Source: a virus | Virus record (IMG/VR): IMGVR_UViG_3300030419_007010 | Location: 97,728-161,727 of that record | DNA length: 64,000 bases | Direction: 5' to 3' (one strand) | Shown here: in pieces, positions 35,649 through 63,230 of the stretch | Layout of the letters: the number at the start of each line of letters is the position of its first letter | Numbering within the stretch: position 1 is the stretch's first letter | Position numbers and translations under genes: made by a program | The notes under the pieces: model-generated | What the model was told of the DNA's origin: nothing | What the model saw: only the letters and a program-made list of their open reading frames with translations | The model's database searches: none

Positions 35649-35670
35649 AATTAATCCTCAATTTTTACAA

Positions 35671-35742
35671 GCCTCCGGACAGATTCGAACTGACGACCTG
35701 CTGATTACAAATCAGCTGCTCTACCAACTGAGCTACAGAGGC
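35671..35742 (-). tRNA. tRNA-Thr (anticodon UGU)
   Basis: 72 nt reading on the minus strand GCCTCTGTAGCTCAG..., with a complete cloverleaf: acceptor GCCTCTG/CGGAGGC (one G-U pair), D-arm GCTCAGTTGGTAGAGC, anticodon stem GCTGA/TCAGC around the loop TTTGTAA (anticodon TGT, decodes ACA), and T-arm with GTTCGAATC. The 3' CCA is not encoded. In an AT-rich phage, a tRNA for ACA codons fits compensation for codon usage. No integrase gene is next to it. Confidence 0.95.
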
Positions 35743-39941: not shown

Positions 39942-40477
39942 GTTGTGCTTCTGTATACTTGTTTAAAAAGTTGTTGTACAGCAGGGTCACCTTTGTAGTG
40001 TAGATCTAAAGCAACTTTTAGCTGATCCAGATCTTTAAGTTTTTCGTCTCTTGGTAAACTTTCGTAAGGCTTAAACAACGCTGGGTTGTCTTTTTTTTGC
40101 CACGAGTTATGCTTCATCCAAACTTCATGGAATTTAGAAGCTAAACTGTTAATATCTTCAGCTGATTTAATTGGCATGCTCTCAACAACTTTTGCATAAT
40201 CAACAGCAGGGCCGCCATTTAATAATTGATTAAGAGATGGCACAATTTTATCTGCAGTCTGATTAATATTCTGATAGGCAACACCATCCTCTATTTTTAT
40301 TCCCTCATAGCCTTTGAGTTGTTCTGCAGTTGGCTTGCCAGGAATTTGTTTAAATTTAGGATCATTTCCTTTTTTTCTTCTATGGTCTTTCAGCCATTGG
40401 GTATGCATTTTATCTGTCATTTGTTTAGCTAATGACTCATTTAGATATTGGCGCCAATTTTCAAATAAGTTTTTCAT
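39938..40477 (-). CDS. capsid-targeting-like peptide plus RyR-like domain
   Basis: 179 residues. N-terminus MKNLFENWRQYLNE. The region ASKFHEVWMKHNSW, then KKDNPALFKPYESLPRDEKLKDLDQ resembles the RyR repeat found in many phage and bacterial proteins (His-x-x-Trp, then L-x-P-Y-x-x-L-x-x-x-E-K). RyR domains are thought to bind ligands or ADP-ribose-like groups, but this is not settled. The fold assignment is from pattern memory and moderate. Confidence 0.6.
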   Translation of the reverse strand: MKNLFENWRQYLNESLAKQMTDKMHTQWLKDHRRKKGNDPKFKQIPGKPTAEQLKGYEGIKIEDGVAYQNINQTADKIVPSLNQLLNGGPAVDYAKVVESMPIKSAEDINSLASKFHEVWMKHNSWQKKDNPALFKPYESLPRDEKLKDLDQLKVALDLHYKGDPAVQQLFKQVYRSTT

Positions 40478-40481
40478 TTAT

Positions 40482-41279
40482 CTATTTTCCTGTTACAAAA
40501 TAATATCCAGCCGCGGCTAATTTATTTCGGTCTGTGATAGGCTTATTATTTGCATCTGTTAAATCTCCTCCTGGAAATGCTGTAATTGGAGATATTAATA
40601 ATTTTCCATCAGATACTTTTCCTATAATCCCAGCAATAAAACTCATATTTTGAGTATCTTTACCTTCACCAGATGTTATAGCTACCCTCTCAATTTGATA
40701 AGCTTTTGAATTAGATTCTGGAGTCCAAATAGGAATTTTCAACAAGTCTTCTCCTTGTTGAGCCAATTTAGCACCTTCTTCAGTTGTAACAATTGCTCCT
40801 TTTTTTTGTTCTCCGGGGATATATTGTTGATTTCGAAATTCTGTTACAGAAGTGTGTTTTTTCATTTTAGCTACTTCTTCGGGAGAAGCTTTTTTTACAT
40901 TTGCAGTACCAACTGGTATTCCGGCCGGCAAATCTAACCATTTAATTCTTGTAGGGTCACTCGTATCATTAGGATTATTTTTAGATACCAATGATATAAT
41001 CGCCTTTTGAAAATCTACGTTCGGTGAAAATTTGGATCCTGGTTGGGAATTTGGACCCTTAACATGTCTTGATTTAATGTGATCAAAATTATCCCTAGTA
41101 CCGATTATATAATAATTTCCAGCAGGAGATATAGTATTTTTATCTGCTTTGACTTTTCCTCTTATATATTTATTTAATTCATTATCTGGATTATCAATAA
41201 TTTGTTGAATTTCTTCAAAAGGAACTTGTCCAACCTCTTCATTTACATATTGGCGCCAGGATTCAAATAAGTTTTTCAT
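40482..41279 (-). CDS. capsid-targeting-like peptide plus possible HIxxRH toxin-like domain
   Basis: 265 residues. N-terminus MKNLFESWRQYVNE. The body has YYIIGTRDNFDHIKSRHVKGP, where HIxxRH after a hydrophobic strand resembles the catalytic His of colicin-E5/barnase-like RNases in polymorphic toxins and MuF effectors. A second half includes KLLISPITAFPGGDL and ends AAGYYFVTGK. Nuclease activity is speculative. Coupled by ATGA overlap to the membrane protein at 41276. Confidence 0.6.
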   Translation of the reverse strand: MKNLFESWRQYVNEEVGQVPFEEIQQIIDNPDNELNKYIRGKVKADKNTISPAGNYYIIGTRDNFDHIKSRHVKGPNSQPGSKFSPNVDFQKAIISLVSKNNPNDTSDPTRIKWLDLPAGIPVGTANVKKASPEEVAKMKKHTSVTEFRNQQYIPGEQKKGAIVTTEEGAKLAQQGEDLLKIPIWTPESNSKAYQIERVAITSGEGKDTQNMSFIAGIIGKVSDGKLLISPITAFPGGDLTDANNKPITDRNKLAAAGYYFVTGK

Positions 41280-46937: not shown

Positions 46938-47289
46938 TGGTGGAGGTGCCGGGAGTCGAACCCGGGTCCAGAATACATCAAATAGTTTGTCATTCACAAG
47001 GTTAGTTCATTTTATATTTTTTTTAAAGGTCTTCTTCAAAAACAAACAAAATAATTTGACCAATGAAGTATACCGCTAAGTATACAATGCTAAAAATATT
47101 TAAAGAGGCGCTAGCAATCCTCTGTCGCTACTTTGGTTAAGAAGGTAGTTAGCGAACCCCCTTATGCTGCGAGAGCATAATTTGCAACATTATCGTTGGC
47201 AATTATAGTTTCAGCGTTTTAACAGAGCCACGCTGCCCTCTGCCTTGCACAAAATATTATACTTACCCTGTCGATACCAGTTCACCCCC
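46938..47289 (-). ncRNA. ssrA: tmRNA (ssrA)
   Basis: On the minus strand the 5' end GGGGGTGAACTGGTATCGAC pairs with the 3' end CACCTCC-A-CCA to form a 7-bp acceptor stem (one G-U), and the T-arm CCGGGTTCGACTCCCGG precedes it; CCA is encoded. The resume region (47200-47162) codes for ANDNVANYALAA followed by TAA, a normal proteolysis tag ending ALAA; with the tRNA-borne Ala it is AANDNVANYALAA. Length is 352 nt, in the usual range. tmRNA rescues stalled ribosomes and tags the products for ClpXP. Confidence 0.95.
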
Positions 47290-54495: not shown

Positions 54496-56421
54496 TTACT
54501 TACAAGCGTTTTCGTCAATAATTTCCATTAAACTATTATAAACAGTTAACATATCGTCTGTTAATTCATACCACTTGCCTGAAGAAGCGGTACATAGAGG
54601 TTCCCATCCTGAATGATAGTTACCATTTTCCTTATGCCAATCTTTTGAGAACACATATATCTTTGTATTAACAGTGTTTGATATCAATTGTAACAAATGA
54701 TCTTGTTCAATTTTAGGATCTAGGTAAGATTGAGGGACTTCATCTGAAAATAATATAATAACTCTCTCTACACTTGAGTCAGTACGCCAATTAACTTTGA
54801 AATTTAATAATTCTGGGTTAGATTGACCAACGCCTTTCATTGTATTCCAAGCTAAGTCCGCTAATTTGATTGGTAAGACAGCAGAGGAGACCAAATTATG
54901 CATCGCGAGATATAACGCATCATGAAGCATCTCCCGCGCGCCTGACATAGAGTATGAGTTGATGTTTAATTGAGCCATACCGGCCAAGAAATCGGTGAAT
55001 CCTGACAAGTTATGATGCAATTTAAGGTATTCTGCGTATGGACCACTAAAACCCTCTAGAGGGCCCAAAATAATGCCCCATTGAAGTACTTCTTCATCAC
55101 TATACTGGCCGGCAAATTTGTTGAGAGCAGTCATAACAGCAATAATCTCTGTATCCATAGAACCAGACCAGTCAACAATGAATAGAATATCAACTGGTTG
55201 CATTTCTTCACCAGAATCAGTTATACCATCACAATCATCATCAACGCCATTGCAGACTTCTTCTTGAGGGGTTATCTCATCTTTACAGAACCCTGGAGTG
55301 AAATACTGCGGTTCTTCTGGCATATCAACCCAATAGTTCCCCCAAACACCTTCTAAACAAGTTAACATGCCCGGTTCGCATATACCTACATATAAAGTGG
55401 CCGGATCTGCGGAATAACATTGCGCATATAGGTCTTCATCGATCAATTGATTGCAATTATCATCGAAATTGTTGCATTCTTCCGCTTCCAAAGGCATGCC
55501 CACCGTCGGATCGCATATTTCGTCTGGATCTGGGAAATAAACGCACGGTGCAACACAATCTGTCGTATAAATCTCCGTACAATTAGGATCTGCGCACTCA
55601 CACGTCTTATATCCTTGGCCACAAAGCAATGGCGACTCATTACACGGGAATAATGCCCCAACGTGGTCTATAGTACACTCACATTTAAGCTCTTCGTCGA
55701 TTTGACCGTCACAATCGTTATCAAAACCATCACAGATTTCAATTTGGACCGGAGGAGCGTTACAAGAGACCCAATTACCTGCAATACAGTATTCTATACC
55801 GACTCCGCATGCTGTTGAACACTCTTGAATGAGATCTTCATCAATATCACCGTCACAATCATTGTCAAAGCCATCGCAGACGTCTTCTGGTACAAAACCA
55901 CACTCCCCACATGCGTTTAATTGGCCTTCGTCGATAAATCCATCACAATCATTGTCCTCATAGTCGCATATTTCTTCGGAACAGATCGTTTCACAGTCTG
56001 TAAACTTAATTTTGCCTTTATCGCATACTTGGTCTTGCGTTCCTGGAAATCCATCGATTGTTATGCACTCAATTGTTCCCATATTATAGTTTGTTGGATC
56101 ACATTCCAAAAATTCTTCACATTCTCCGACTTCCAAAACCTTCGGAGGGTCAAGACATATATCTTTTACAATCTTCATACGCCAATTGGCATTTAGATCA
56201 CAAAAATACCACTCTTCACGAATACATTTCTTCCGATACTCTTCAGGAGTCATCAACTCCATAATAAGAGGGTTTGGAATTGATATCGGATATAAACTTA
56301 TAGGAGGGGCTTCATCTGGAGTATCATTACAAGAAACTACTGTCGAGAGCACCAATAATAAAACGGCGCCGTATACCAACGACATTTTTAAAATATTATA
56401 TAATTTCTTGAGTATTTTCAT
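54496..56421 (-). CDS. MopE-repeat and VWA-domain lipoprotein
   Basis: 641 residues from the ATG at 56421, one base after the upstream stop. Lipoprotein signal VLLLVLSTVVSCNDTPDEAP. Five MopE-type metal-binding repeats follow (CDYEDNDCDGFIDEG, CDGFDNDCDGDIDED, CDGFDNDCDGQIDEE, CNNFDDNCNQLIDED, CNGVDDDCDGITDSG), then a VWA domain with the MIDAS motif VDILFIVDWSGSMDTE near residue 412. Such proteins are common on the surface of myxobacteria and relatives, not in phages. Probably exported to the outer membrane, calcium-dependent adhesion. Possible host-derived gene. Confidence 0.88.
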   Translation of the reverse strand: MKILKKLYNILKMSLVYGAVLLLVLSTVVSCNDTPDEAPPISLYPISIPNPLIMELMTPEEYRKKCIREEWYFCDLNANWRMKIVKDICLDPPKVLEVGECEEFLECDPTNYNMGTIECITIDGFPGTQDQVCDKGKIKFTDCETICSEEICDYEDNDCDGFIDEGQLNACGECGFVPEDVCDGFDNDCDGDIDEDLIQECSTACGVGIEYCIAGNWVSCNAPPVQIEICDGFDNDCDGQIDEELKCECTIDHVGALFPCNESPLLCGQGYKTCECADPNCTEIYTTDCVAPCVYFPDPDEICDPTVGMPLEAEECNNFDDNCNQLIDEDLYAQCYSADPATLYVGICEPGMLTCLEGVWGNYWVDMPEEPQYFTPGFCKDEITPQEEVCNGVDDDCDGITDSGEEMQPVDILFIVDWSGSMDTEIIAVMTALNKFAGQYSDEEVLQWGIILGPLEGFSGPYAEYLKLHHNLSGFTDFLAGMAQLNINSYSMSGAREMLHDALYLAMHNLVSSAVLPIKLADLAWNTMKGVGQSNPELLNFKVNWRTDSSVERVIILFSDEVPQSYLDPKIEQDHLLQLISNTVNTKIYVFSKDWHKENGNYHSGWEPLCTASSGKWYELTDDMLTVYNSLMEIIDENACK

Positions 56422-56422
56422 A

Positions 56423-56716
56423 TTAATCGATTGGACCAAAAAGATCATCGAAGTTAAAGAAAAATTTATCAGTATCTCTTATATTAACTTCTTCCATTGT
56501 ATTCCAAAGTTTAGCCAACGTCCTTCCAGCTTCTATATCTGTATCAAAGTGTTTTTTTAAAAAATGTTTATCTTCTACCAAAACTGCAAAATATGCACGA
56601 ATCTTCCATTTGAATTTATTTGTTAATTCAACACATCCAACTGGATCATCATTATTCTTTCCAACAATCCGAACTTCCGTGGTTGTATGAGAAAGCTTCT
56701 TCCAACTTATTTTCAT
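56423..56716 (-). CDS. small protein, unknown
   Basis: 97 residues: KISWKKLSHTTTEVRIVGKN, VGCVELTNKFKWKIRAYFAVLV, then FDTDIEAGRTLAKLWNTMEEV. A strand-rich first half and helical second half. No family known. Similar short proteins occur in marine phage genomes as I recall them. Confidence 0.6.
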   Translation of the reverse strand: MKISWKKLSHTTTEVRIVGKNNDDPVGCVELTNKFKWKIRAYFAVLVEDKHFLKKHFDTDIEAGRTLAKLWNTMEEVNIRDTDKFFFNFDDLFGPID

Positions 56717-60158: not shown

Positions 60159-61022
60159 TTAGGCGGTGAGACCGTTATTCGTGAAGAATTCCGCACACTT
60201 ACGGTCAAGGGCCTTGGAAATCTGGCAGACGCGCGGCTTGGAAATGCCGTTGATCTCCGCAAGTGTCGCTTGCGAAAGGGGCTCATTTCCCAAGTATTCC
60301 GCGAGGTTACGGGACTCGAAGATGTGACGGTCCCGCAAGGAAAGAGTGGAAATAAAAGAGGAAAGAACGCGCGCAATTCGCTCACTCTTGCGGACACGAT
60401 CCAGCTTCTCGTCTTGCCGAATCTCGCGAGTAGAAAGCAAGTCACCGAAAGTAGAACCGTCAGAATCGCCAACGGGAGTTGACATAGAAGTAGCAGATCC
60501 GAACACAACAGCCCAAGCGTCTGCGATCTTGTCGGCGTCCAGCTTCAAGTGATCCGCGATGGTTTCCGGTGTAATATCAACACCTTGGGCGGTAAGCACG
60601 CGGCGCGCGCGGTGAATCTTGCGGTAAAGCTCGCGAGTTGTGCGATCATCGCCGGAGACGACGCCGCGCGACTTTACAACTTCTTGACAACGCGCAACCA
60701 TCCACTGGCGCGCAACGGTTGGAAAGTTTGCACCAGAGGACCGGTCAAACACGCGGATCGCGTCAAGCGTAGCACCGGCAGCGGTGGCGATCAGATCTTC
60801 AAGCTCGATCCCGTTACGCTTGTGATTGTTGGCGACGTTGATCGCCAGTCGGATGTTAGAGAGCACCAGAGCCTTGCGAGCGTCAGCATCACCAGCCTGC
60901 GCCTGGATAGCTAGCTCGGTCTGAGCCTTGCGGGGAAGTGGAGCGTTGTCTTTTGCGATCTTGAAGAAGTCCAATGTCTGATCCTTTGTTGGGGTTGCTT
61001 TCCTCGACTGCTTATAGATCAT
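60159..61022 (-). CDS. sigma-70 family RNA polymerase sigma factor
   Basis: 287 residues from the ATG at 61022 (a GTG at 61058 would add 12; a -10-like TATGAT overlaps this ATG, so the true start may even be later). Region 2: ALVLSNIRLAINVANNHKRNGIELEDLIATAAGATLDAIRVFDRSSGANFPTVARQWM is split here as ARKALVLSNIRLAINVAN and GIELEDLIATAAGA. Region 3: ELYRKIHRARRVLTAQG. Region 4: LSLRDRHIFESRNL and ATLAEINGISKPRVCQISKA, the -35-binding helix-turn-helix. GC-rich codons, unlike the rest of the window. Likely redirects RNA polymerase to phage genes or is itself a host-type factor. Confidence 0.9.
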   Translation of the reverse strand: MIYKQSRKATPTKDQTLDFFKIAKDNAPLPRKAQTELAIQAQAGDADARKALVLSNIRLAINVANNHKRNGIELEDLIATAAGATLDAIRVFDRSSGANFPTVARQWMVARCQEVVKSRGVVSGDDRTTRELYRKIHRARRVLTAQGVDITPETIADHLKLDADKIADAWAVVFGSATSMSTPVGDSDGSTFGDLLSTREIRQDEKLDRVRKSERIARVLSSFISTLSLRDRHIFESRNLAEYLGNEPLSQATLAEINGISKPRVCQISKALDRKCAEFFTNNGLTA

Positions 61023-61059
61023 AGCACAGTCTGAACCCAATAGGGAAAAAAACGACACT

Positions 61060-61080
61060 CGTAAGTCTTTGATATCATTA
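61060..61080. repeat. TAAGT-TGATATCA repeat copy 1
   Basis: CGTAAGTCTTTGATATCATTA, directly upstream of the sigma gene. Shares the pattern GTAAGT, 2-4 nt, TGAWATCA with copies at 61142, 61207 and 61332; the core is palindromic. Could be an operator or alternative-sigma promoter element. Confidence 0.55.
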
Positions 61081-61141
61081 ATGAAGTGAAAATAGATTTA
61101 ACTAATTTCTCTTTGATTATCGCGGACTTACGGGCCTCCTT

Positions 61142-61162
61142 TGTAAGTTATTGAAATCATTA
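61142..61162. repeat. TAAGT-TGAAATCA repeat copy 2
   Basis: TGTAAGTTATTGAAATCATTA. With the inverted ACTTAC at 61126-61131 it also forms a short dyad (ACTTAC/GTAAGT). Confidence 0.5.
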
Positions 61163-61206
61163 GACCCCAAATCACCCCGATCCAGCCTGTTTTGAGAGGC
61201 TGTGAT

Positions 61207-61221
61207 CGTAAGTGATATCAA
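61207..61221. repeat. TAAGT-GATATCA repeat copy 3 (shorter)
   Basis: CGTAAGTGATATCAA; the middle 3-4 nt are missing compared with the other copies. Lies 18 nt from the end of the small gene at 61226. Confidence 0.4.
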
Positions 61222-61331: not shown

Positions 61332-61352
61332 ATTAAGTGATTGAAATCATTG
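61332..61352. repeat. TAAGT-TGAAATCA repeat copy 4
   Basis: ATTAAGTGATTGAAATCATTG, upstream of the 26-residue peptide gene and 24 nt after the stop of the 61377 gene. Confidence 0.5.
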
Positions 61353-61376: not shown

Positions 61377-61676
61377 CTAGCGCCAGCGGTTGGGGGACAC
61401 CTTGCGACCAGCGAAGGCTGACACGGTGTCATACACGCGGCGCTGACCGTCGGATCCGCCGTAGACGTCCGGGCTGGACTGTAGCGGGCTCTCGTTCTTG
61501 TCGAACCGAGCGAGCAGATACACGCCATTGACGTGCGCGATGGCCAACGTCTCACCGTTGGGCAGGTGGACACGGCGCTCGATGGTAACGGGCTCCGGAG
61601 CCTTGTTGAGTTTCTGGGTGAATCGCTCGCGAGTGTGCTGCGTGCGGCGCTTGTTGGTCTTGCACTTGGCTGCCAT
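61377..61676 (-). CDS. small basic protein, early-type gene
   Basis: 99 residues: an N-terminal Lys/Arg-rich part (AAKCKTNKRRTQHTRERFTQ), then strands (ERRVHLPNGETLAIAHVNGV, YLLARFDKNES) and a basic end. SD GGAG. It lies 45 nt behind promoter P1. No family recognised; the base composition fits nucleic-acid or host-factor binding. Confidence 0.68.
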   Translation of the reverse strand: MAAKCKTNKRRTQHTRERFTQKLNKAPEPVTIERRVHLPNGETLAIAHVNGVYLLARFDKNESPLQSSPDVYGGSDGQRRVYDTVSAFAGRKVSPNRWR

Positions 61677-61720: not shown

Positions 61721-61748
61721 ACTATAAGCACGCGGGTGAATGGATTAA
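61721..61748 (-). promoter_or_regulatory. early-type promoter P1
   Basis: Minus strand: TTAATC (61748-61743), 16 bp ending CGTGCT, then TATAGT (61726-61721). Drives the gene at 61377. Confidence 0.7.
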
Positions 61749-61760
61749 GGGTTGACAGTG

Positions 61761-61974
61761 AGAAAAAGAGGGGGTTTGATCCGTAGCCAGTTCAGCACCG
61801 GCAAAATCGCATGTGTTCATTGTACCCTGCTAGTACCGTAATTTATTTACGCTTTTACTAGCTTCCCCTATCCCACAGAAAAAAATACTCTCAGTTATAC
61901 GTAAAAAAAACTGAAGATATATCTTTTTCCCTTCAATGTCTTTGTTCTTCTCTAAAACTTTTTCATGACATTCC
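61761..61974. other. non-coding gap
   Basis: 214 bp between P1 and the 61975 gene. AT-rich in its lower part, with TTTACG-x-TTTTACT and runs of A. No start codon with an SD and no RNA gene was found. It may hold a terminator for the 61975 gene, but no clear hairpin is seen. Confidence 0.5.
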
Positions 61975-62250
61975 TTACTTTTGGCTCACAATTTTCACGC
62001 CTCGCACACCGCTGGATCCTTCCTTACCATCGGGATAAGTGAACCTCACATCGGGCGGGTTGACGTAAGTAACCAGCGCTGGCTTGCCTGGGTGATATCC
62101 ATAATTAATCACCACAAGATCGCCAACCTTGGGCATGGTAATATCTGCATAAGCCCTGGCGTCTCGTGCTCTCTTGACTTGCGCCCTCATGTGAAGAGGC
62201 ACGTCGCTTAAGTCATCCCAAGGCGCGGCTATTTCAAAGATATTGCTCAT
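61975..62250 (-). CDS. small protein with KOW/SH3-like part, early-type gene
   Basis: 91 residues: a helical start (SNIFEIAAPWDDLSDVPLHM), then ITMPKVGDLVVINYGYHPGK, PALVTYVNPPDVRFTYPDGKEGSSGVRGV. KVGDLV and the following strands resemble the small beta-barrel proteins at 30539, 58229 and 58514, although similarity is low. SD AGAGG. Behind promoter P2. Confidence 0.65.
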   Translation of the reverse strand: MSNIFEIAAPWDDLSDVPLHMRAQVKRARDARAYADITMPKVGDLVVINYGYHPGKPALVTYVNPPDVRFTYPDGKEGSSGVRGVKIVSQK

Positions 62251-62279
62251 GTGTTCCTCTTTTACCCTCCGACACCTAA

Positions 62280-62307
62280 AGTATAAGCACCGGAGGGCGT
62301 GAGTTAA
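62280..62307 (-). promoter_or_regulatory. early-type promoter P2
   Basis: TTAACT (62307-62302), 16 bp ending CCGGTGCT, TATACT (62285-62280). Precedes the 61975 gene by 30 nt. Confidence 0.72.
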
Positions 62308-62310
62308 GGG

Positions 62311-62559
62311 TTAGGACTGCTTTCCGTCAACGATGTTCGCCACGGAAACGAACAGAGCAGCGAAGTCCTTCACCTGATCCTTGTCCAGAACCAGCGAAAC
62401 CCCACGCTTGCGACCGGGGACGTTCATGGTCAGCGAGACAAGCGGAATCTCGTCATTGACCTCGCGAACGAGCACAGAGGCAAGCGCGGCCTCATTGGCT
62501 CCGGTAACGGTAAAAGTGTTCTCGACGACGACGGTTTGAGTGGTGCTCTTGTTCAGCAT
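62311..62559 (-). CDS. small protein, early-type gene
   Basis: 82 residues: LNKSTTQTVVVENTFTVTGA, then EAALASVLVREVNDEIPLVSLTMNVPGRKRGVSLVLDKDQVKDFAA and LFVSVANIVDGKQS. Strand-helix alternation without known motif. SD GGAGG 8 nt from the ATG. Behind promoter P3. Confidence 0.66.
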   Translation of the reverse strand: MLNKSTTQTVVVENTFTVTGANEAALASVLVREVNDEIPLVSLTMNVPGRKRGVSLVLDKDQVKDFAALFVSVANIVDGKQS

Positions 62560-62603
62560 TTTGTGCGTCCTCCATGGATGCGGTGTGTTTGTCTTACGTG
62601 TAA

Positions 62604-62631
62604 ACTATAAGCACGGATCGTGCCTAGTTAA
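62604..62631 (-). promoter_or_regulatory. early-type promoter P3
   Basis: TTAACT (62631-62626), 16 bp ending CCGTGCT, TATAGT (62609-62604). Best match to the shared consensus. Confidence 0.72.
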
Positions 62632-62803
62632 CCCCTTGACGATCTTTTTTTGGAATAATCAAGACAATTGATCCCTCTGTGGATCCATATGCCTCGCGTG
62701 TCTGGTTACTGGCGAGCAGATCGGCAACGTCTTGAAGTGATAGCCGACCGATCCGGGCCTGGAATCGCTCGAATTCGGTGGGGATGTGATAAGTGATAAT
62801 CAC
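62624..62803 (-). CDS. small protein, early-type gene (GTG start)
   Basis: 59 residues from the GTG at 62803, one base after the upstream stop with SD GAGG 7 nt away; a longer frame (to 63001) is a shadow of the neighbouring gene. IITYHIPTEFERFQARIGRL, LQDVADLLASNQTREAYGST and IVLIIPKKDRQ. The 3' end overlaps the -35 box of promoter P3. No family recognised. Confidence 0.6.
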   Translation of the reverse strand: MIITYHIPTEFERFQARIGRLSLQDVADLLASNQTREAYGSTEGSIVLIIPKKDRQGVN

Positions 62804-62804
62804 T

Positions 62805-63044
62805 CTAACCCTCGCAGCAATCGGGGTGTGTCCAGTTCTCATACTGCCAATCGGAGATCTCGCGATTCTTACACAGAGAATCAGTCCAATTGTTCCAAGT
62901 CTCGGAACGATGGACCTCATCGACCCACTTCCATTTTCCACCCTGCGACTCGGTTTCCTGGGCGATGATAGCGGGAAGGATATCGCGCTCGAACTCTTCA
63001 ATCGCTTCGTCGCGGGTCTTGACTGTGTACAGGTCTCTGGCCAT
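62805..63044 (-). CDS. small protein, early-type gene
   Basis: 79 residues. RDLYTVKTRDEAIEEFERDI, LPAIIAQETESQGGKWKWVD, then a Trp-rich end (HRSETWNNWTDSLCKNREISDWQYENW). SD GGAG. Two promoters (P4, P5) lie upstream. Function unknown; Trp/Glu-rich small proteins of this kind are typical takeover candidates. Confidence 0.66.
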   Translation of the reverse strand: MARDLYTVKTRDEAIEEFERDILPAIIAQETESQGGKWKWVDEVHRSETWNNWTDSLCKNREISDWQYENWTHPDCCEG

Positions 63045-63076
63045 TTTGGAATCTCCTCTGTCCCTCTGACACTTAT

Positions 63077-63104
63077 ATAGTAAGCACCGGAGGGACAGAA
63101 TTAA
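63077..63104 (-). promoter_or_regulatory. early-type promoter P4
   Basis: TTAATT (63104-63099), 16 bp ending CCGGTGCT, TACTAT (63082-63077), 33 nt before the 62805 gene. A second -10-like TATATAAG overlaps. Confidence 0.6.
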
Positions 63105-63202
63105 GTACGTGAAGGGAATAGTTAGCGGGTTTCTTGTGCGGCGTATCCCACGAGCCGCTAGCGCAAACGCATTAAATAACCTCTTTGTGTGTCTACGTGT
63201 TA
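63105..63202 (-). other. short leader between promoters P4 and P5
   Basis: 98 bp transcribed from P5 without a normal gene. It contains only a 4-codon frame (ATG CGT TTG CGC TAG, 63172-63158) behind a good SD (AGAGG), and a frame with no start codon that stays open until TATATAA. Could be a small RNA, a minigene, or a gene remnant. Confidence 0.35.
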
Positions 63203-63230
63203 ACTGTAAGCACGGAAGGCTGAGAGTTAA
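63203..63230 (-). promoter_or_regulatory. early-type promoter P5
   Basis: TTAACT (63230-63225), 16 bp ending CCGTGCT, TACAGT (63208-63203). Confidence 0.68.

Follow-up and report, generated by a model that had tools for sequence, protein, structure and literature searches.

A large promoter array in the takeover-type region of marine T4-like phages, probably read by the phages' own sigma factor

At one end of a large viral contig, five copies of one promoter-like motif stand in front of very small genes, and the locus raises the question of which sigma factor reads them. The window analyzed (the whole stretch of 64,000 nucleotides) is the final 64 kb of a 161,727-bp IMG/VR virus record. The contig stops at the right edge of the window, which therefore takes in the edge of the array and no more. 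Judged by gene content (a gp23-type head protein, tail sheath, terminase, UvsX, a DnaB-type helicase, PhoH and tmRNA in the record), this marine virus is a large T4-like myovirus, and nearly all of its genes are on the minus strand. Other features of the window include a phage-genome tmRNA gene (46938-47289, tag ANDNVANYALAA), a tRNA-Thr (35670-35742) and a 650-aa protein (54496-56448) in which the motif DxDNDCDGxxDE recurs and one part is VWA-like; it has no PHROG match and is kept in relatives. A related contig, G001 (IMGVR_UViG_3300007511_000044), is collinear with 55-64 kb of the window at 68-88% nucleotide identity and extends beyond the window end. A chimeric contig or mis-assembly at the GC jump, about 60 kb, was rejected because G001 is collinear across the jump. 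BLAST of the array region against GenBank phages gave no match, and an Rfam scan gave no relevant family.

A preliminary description of the window reported five minus-strand copies of TTAAYT, 16 bp and TAYAGT or TATACT, with GTGCT directly before the -10. All five are present where it placed them (Table 1), and the full pattern with up to two mismatches has exactly five matches in the 64 kb. Shuffled sequence gave 0.92 ± 0.95 matches, and no shuffle reached five. The general form of the boxes holds, but the -35 at 61748 is TTAATC and the -10 at 63077 is TACTAT. A tighter pattern, TTAA-N13-GTGCTTAYNNT, matches exactly at all five sites and at no other place in the 161,727-bp record; with up to two mismatches the whole record has 20 matches versus 19 in a reversed control, and in the other 157 kb the motif is at background level. 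The sites also precede small genes or leaders, as had been claimed: four are 23-38 nt (from +1 to ATG) before an ORF of 79-99 codons with a Shine-Dalgarno sequence, and the fifth (63203) precedes a leader-like four-codon ORF. This short ORF (63158-63172, minus strand; ATG CGT TTG CGC TAG) is a possible leader peptide, and its G001 copy differs by one amino acid. Two of the sites are associated with inverted repeats. The -10 of P4 is centered in a 19-nt inverted repeat (63057-63099) that is also kept in G001, and a shorter one, CCCTCCG/CGGAGGG, surrounds P2 (about 62265-62297).

Table 1. Predicted features at the array end of the window (positions are those of the window).
Feature	Position	Strand	Remarks
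Sigma70-family factor	60159..60974	-	271 aa from TTG; ORF could begin at 61058; regions 2, 3 and 4
Degenerate sigma54-like -24/-12 element	61023..61038	-	GG-N10-GC upstream of the sigma gene; same bases form an extended -10, TGTGCTATGAT
Three repeats, TGATWTCAAWNACTTA	61062-61079, 61144-61161, 61334-61351	-	Candidate upstream activator sites
P1, predicted array promoter	61721..61748	-	TTAATC-16-TATAGT with GTGCT; predicted +1 61714; upstream of ORF 61377-61676
P2, predicted array promoter	62280..62307	-	TTAACT-16-TATACT; predicted +1 62273; upstream of ORF 61975-62250
P3, predicted array promoter	62604..62631	-	TTAACT-16-TATAGT; predicted +1 62597; upstream of ORF 62311-62559
P4, predicted array promoter	63077..63104	-	TTAATT-16-TACTAT; predicted +1 63070; upstream of ORF 62805-63044
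P5, predicted array promoter	63203..63230	-	TTAACT-16-TACAGT; predicted +1 63196; then four-codon ORF with Shine-Dalgarno
ORF behind P1, 99 aa	61377..61676	-	91% identical in G001; no function assigned
ORF behind P2, 91 aa	61975..62250	-	KVGDLV-type small protein
ORF behind P3, 82 aa	62311..62559	-	79% identical in G001; no confident family match
ORF behind P4, 79 aa	62805..63044	-	phrog_336-like, function not known; homologues in sigma-less relatives

The array continues in relatives. In G001, 25 motif sites (21 exact and four with one mismatch to TTAA-N13-GTGCTTAYNNT) share a strand along about 17 kb, with none antisense, and three further phages carry 12 (L128), 11 (L077) and four (L029) copies. 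The possibility that the genome holds no further sites can be set aside, many more being present in this continuation, and P1 to P5 are by this comparison the edge of an array of 25 or more dedicated, predicted promoters. In the G001 array (L011, L012) many genes code for KVGDLV-type proteins of only about 50-90 aa, several of them predicted to be leaderless; the array also includes a MoxR/DUF2201 pair and tRNA genes.

The common form of the motif is cTTAAY-N12-GTGCTTAYNNT-N6-(+1)RT. In five phages, TTAA is found exactly 13 nt upstream of GTGCTTAY in 48 of 58 sense copies, and there is one antisense copy in 52 kb. The gap is rigid (13 nt at 48 sites, 12 at one and 14 at one). Columns outside the selection pattern are also conserved over 54 distinct sites in these five phages: C before TTAA (38/54), Y at -1 (49/54) and, at the inferred start, R at +1 (53/54) and T at +2 (40/54). 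The ATG is exactly at +1 at 12 sites, which would give leaderless mRNAs, at -6 at two, and at +13 or beyond at all others. Some sites directly precede tRNA genes. Because of the purine at +1 and the 12 ATGs placed exactly there, the array sites are very probably promoters. The fixed architecture, the purine 7 nt after the -10, the leaderless ATGs and the tRNA genes behind some sites agree with the earlier view of a promoter array in a takeover-type region. Recent copying, which had been offered to explain the similarity, is not borne out: from one site to the next, spacer and flanking sequence show no relation, and the recognition columns alone are in common.

A gene for a sigma70-family factor lies just downstream of the array. 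Its protein matches phrog_351 (1.6e-32), Pfam sigma region 3 above the cut-off with regions 2 and 4 just below, and SigA/RpoD/RpoS/RpoH in the PDB. When it is aligned to housekeeping sigmas, FSTYATWWIRQAITRA is replaced by FPTVARQWMVARCQEV and TRERIRQI by SKPRVCQI, at positions that we take to be those reading TATAAT and TTGACA in housekeeping sigmas. An AlphaFold model from two sequences (pLDDT 56) was too poor for use. A small protein of G001 (L013:246-482; G001 40246-40482), with homologues in most relatives, matches only the sigma-family end (region 4-like) and is a candidate sigma-region-4-only or gp33-like factor.

The occurrence of sigma gene and array together was scored across related phages. 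A first test, made with TerL/MCP relatives, showed neither of them in 18 contigs, many of which may not cover the region. For this reason early regions were instead gathered through the array's MoxR-type ATPase gene, which gave 67 loci, 64 of them scored. A sigma-less locus was counted as informative if it included 9 kb or more on the downstream side of MoxR, and an array was called canonical at four or more sigma70 sites. In addition to the window and G001, eight relatives carry a homologue of the sigma factor, at 34-41% identity (34-39% for relatives in alignment A2). A general pattern for all sigma lineages, TTD-N14-GTNCYTAY-N2-T, has 10-20 sense matches in each of the nine sigma-bearing loci (G001 and the eight relatives). 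It has 9-14 in L459, L465 and L473, whose contigs stop 2.5-3.4 kb past MoxR, before the sigma position, and 0-1 in the other 52 of the 64; overall there are 168 sense versus 6 antisense matches. A GTNCYTAY-type array with the same spacing is thus present in 9/9 sigma-bearing and 0/29 informative sigma-less loci (p = 6e-9, uncorrected for descent).

Sigma-less loci usually carry something else in this region. At least four canonical TTGACA-17-TATAAT sites are found in 20 of the 29 informative loci, and in the other nine neither array type is clear by the cut-off used. The canonical form CTTGACA-N14-TGNTATAAT reaches 22 copies per locus in loci without sigma (347 sense versus 27 antisense in total). 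For example, the sister phages G015 and G016 have a canonical sigma70 array in the same region, with homologous genes and the same one-way layout. The sigma gene was not found on G015, where its position is covered, or on G016, where the contig breaks there and the negative is a weak one. Since sigma-less sisters keep canonical sigma70 arrays and sigma-bearing ones do not, the specificity is probably not that of host sigma70.

The motif also varies by lineage: CTTAAY..GTGCTTAY in the window and G001, CTTTACT..GTTCTTAT in L458, L460 and L459, TTTACTC..GTNCCTATGTT in L462, L465, L466, L467 and L473, and CTTGAC/CTTGTC..GTTCCTAT or GTGCTTAT in L461, L463 and L464. In all variants the +1 purine is at the same distance (33/33, 57/58 and 32/34). 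With four sigma lineages and four motif variants, sigma-promoter specificity becomes readable from sequence. On a MoxR tree, the sigma and array traits each need three changes. These fall at shared positions, and two are on branches with good support. So few changes (two to three) mean few independent events and thin replication of the association, and since sigma and array are neighbors they could be co-inherited without a functional link. Other motifs are seen as well. The sigma-less L489 and L493 have a repeated non-canonical one, CTTGCG/CTTGACG with GGTTAAG, as a further promoter-like class, and no phage sigma detected, so that an unusual array need not imply a phage sigma; the sigma-less relatives L474 and L503 likewise have other repeated promoter-like motifs.

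Several other readers of the array can be considered. Host sigma70 itself might read it, with the motif a host-preferred extended -10 form and the phage sigma serving other genes. Early phage promoters are classically of the sigma70 type, TTAACT-16-TATAGT is near the sigma70 consensus, and two of the five sites pass a plain sigma70 scan at 9/12. This reading is nevertheless unlikely, given an invariant GTGCTTA, TTAAY as the -35, a TG one base upstream of the TGn position of extended -10 promoters, no TTGACA in 54 sites and rigid spacing. Moreover, canonical sigma70 promoters exist elsewhere in the same genomes, in 5 of 39 windows outside the array of G000 (0.2 in shuffles; two on the antisense strand) and 3 of 14 in G001; examples stand in front of the G000 gp47-like gene (CTTGACT-N14-TGCTAGAAT) and of GroEL in G001. 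In relatives that lack the sigma, this region has canonical arrays. Group 3 sigma factors recognize short bipartite promoters with a strong extended -10, a form that the array motif resembles. Reading by a host alternative sigma (stress or developmental) is still very improbable, because a search of 84,980 species genomes with a strict form of the motif found 104 matches, of which the 80 listed are single and scattered with no regulon (the host may be absent from the collection), and because array type tracks the presence of the phage sigma. It is just as improbable that GTGCT lies outside sigma recognition and is an operator, bound by a regulator, that overlaps otherwise ordinary promoters. 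Dyads do surround some sites, including the repeat at P4, but a dyad beyond shuffles is found at only 4/54, which speaks against a dyad operator at every site; GTGCT keeps its position to the base with respect to the -10, and in the -35, too, the sites deviate from TTGACA.

The phage sigma might, in an SPO1-like arrangement with host-read early genes, serve late genes and be tied to the array by position alone. Many phage sigmas do serve middle or late genes, phiEco32 gp36 and phage 7-11 gp47 among them (PMC8948821). We consider this quite unlikely here: sigma-less relatives persist with the same structural genes but different early arrays, a de novo motif search of 39 G000 intergenic gaps outside the array gave nothing strong and no second shared motif, and an array-type promoter directly precedes the sigma gene in three relatives. 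Two phage promoter classes were also rejected. T4 late promoters have TATAAATA at -10 and no -35; the array motif differs, and TATAAATA occurs 8 times sense and 8 times antisense in G000. MotA-type middle promoters are excluded on geometry, as GTGCTTA overlaps the -10; a search for MotA domains gave no match anywhere, controls included, and is hence uninformative by itself. The phages compared here do have a sigma70-family gene, a recurrent motif distinct from that of host sigma70, and co-occurrence of the two across phages, the marks of promoters read by a phage sigma. The shared regulator suggested in the preliminary description is supported, with the phage's own sigma factor as best candidate. 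The host polymerase that it proposed as reader is probably right for the core enzyme but probably not for host sigma70, since canonical arrays are carried by sister phages without the sigma and not by those with it.

Control of the sigma gene itself appears to involve sigma54 in relatives. Seven of them have, before the sigma gene, a strict match to the sigma54 promoter (TTGGCAC-N5-YTGCA, then ATATATATAGG or a similar sequence), and an eighth (L461) has a near-match. In 1.06 Mb of MoxR loci the strict pattern has eight sense matches, six of which are at sigma genes; the sigma gene of L466 lies on another part of its contig. An array-type promoter directly before the sigma start in L460, L463 and L464 suggests positive feedback, and the L461 contig has one within 1 kb upstream of sigma on the same strand. 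With both promoter types placed there, the sigma gene of relatives is probably sigma54-triggered and then self-reinforcing. No gene for an enhancer-binding protein (PF00158) was detected in the seven phage records searched, with 14/14 controls detected, so the activator would have to be a host protein. In the window and G001 the element keeps GG-N10-GC but scores 8/13 and 9/13, respectively, against TGGCAC-N5-TTGCA, and it overlaps a good extended -10; it could be a sigma70 site instead. The three repeats TGATWTCAAWNACTTA lie upstream of it, in a stretch of which the window and G001 share about 130 nt without a difference, compared with about 80-90% identity in the flanking genes. At 61030-61210 (minus strand) the predicted RNA fold is stronger than in shuffles (z -3.0). 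Upstream of sigma, ACTTAC-AAAGGAGGCCC-GTAAGT is a possible hairpin with a perfect Shine-Dalgarno sequence in the loop and no Rfam match; the 23-nt core of this region is found in IMG/VR only in G001 and its duplicate contig.

From the array, its architecture and predicted start positions, the sigma gene and their association, all read from sequence, we infer sigma binding, timing and sigma54 control. The scheme that we regard as likely is that the phage sigma reads the array, that sigma and array replaced a canonical host-sigma70 array, and that in relatives the system is sigma54-gated and self-reinforcing. One promoter class would serve about 17-19 kb of small-gene region, all pointing one way. 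Host core RNA polymerase with the phage sigma would recognize cTTAAY at -35 and, at rigid spacing, GTGCTTAYNNT at the -10 and immediately before it. Transcription would start 7 nt downstream of the -10, at RT, and many mRNAs would have a very short leader or none. Sigma gene and array would together have displaced the array that relatives keep. In relatives, sigma would be switched on via host sigma54 and then, in three of them, reinforce itself through its array-type promoter; in the window only the degenerate sigma54-like site would remain. If the phage sigma is needed, the array promoters would be delayed-early or middle. More tentatively, a clade of abundant marine T4-like phages may have moved its whole takeover region from host sigma70 to a phage sigma. 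The gene for this sigma would depend on host sigma54 together with an enhancer-binding protein of the host and would then be amplified by its own promoter class, and the takeover genes would come on as a self-reinforcing switch linked to the physiological state of the host.

These loci are a natural experiment in promoter-sigma co-evolution, with 5-22 near-consensus host promoters or 9-25 diverged ones according to sigma presence, and how a phage replaces the promoters of a whole regulon becomes testable. Sigma54-type promoters in that position, upstream of the phage sigma, would link takeover by the phage to one of the host's regulatory systems. A limited search of the open-access full-text literature found no report of sigma54-type promoters tying a phage sigma or takeover to the host.

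Phage sigmas with private promoters are already known. For example, gp28 of SPO1 redirects host core polymerase to middle promoters, with early genes read by host sigmaA. The system proposed here would likewise create a new promoter class via a phage sigma, but its target would be the early-type array itself, and the motif differs. Phage 7-11 gp47 and phiEco32 gp36 are phage sigmas with their own promoters, the 7-11 motif being bipartite, GTAAtg-16-aCTA (PMC8948821, PMC4331800). As proposed for the array, they combine a phage sigma70-family factor, its own motif and host core polymerase. Their motifs occur in about 6-8 copies at middle and late genes, in contrast to 25 or more before small early-type genes here; sequence and phage group also differ, and here there is a sigma-less sister set with canonical promoters. 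The novel points are how large the array is, that it stands in the takeover region, that it takes the place of the canonical host-type array of sister phages, and that each lineage has its own motif variant, together with a probable sigma54 trigger with feedback in relatives. T4 middle promoters (MotA/AsiA) have a MotA box 12 ± 1 bp upstream of a sigma70 -10 (PMC2988021). The phage is T4-like and the word TGCTTA is in both motifs, but here GTGCTTA overlaps the -10. The sister phages G015 and G016, finally, differ from the window in the motif itself, theirs being CTTGACA-N14-TGNTATAAT with a spacer of 17.
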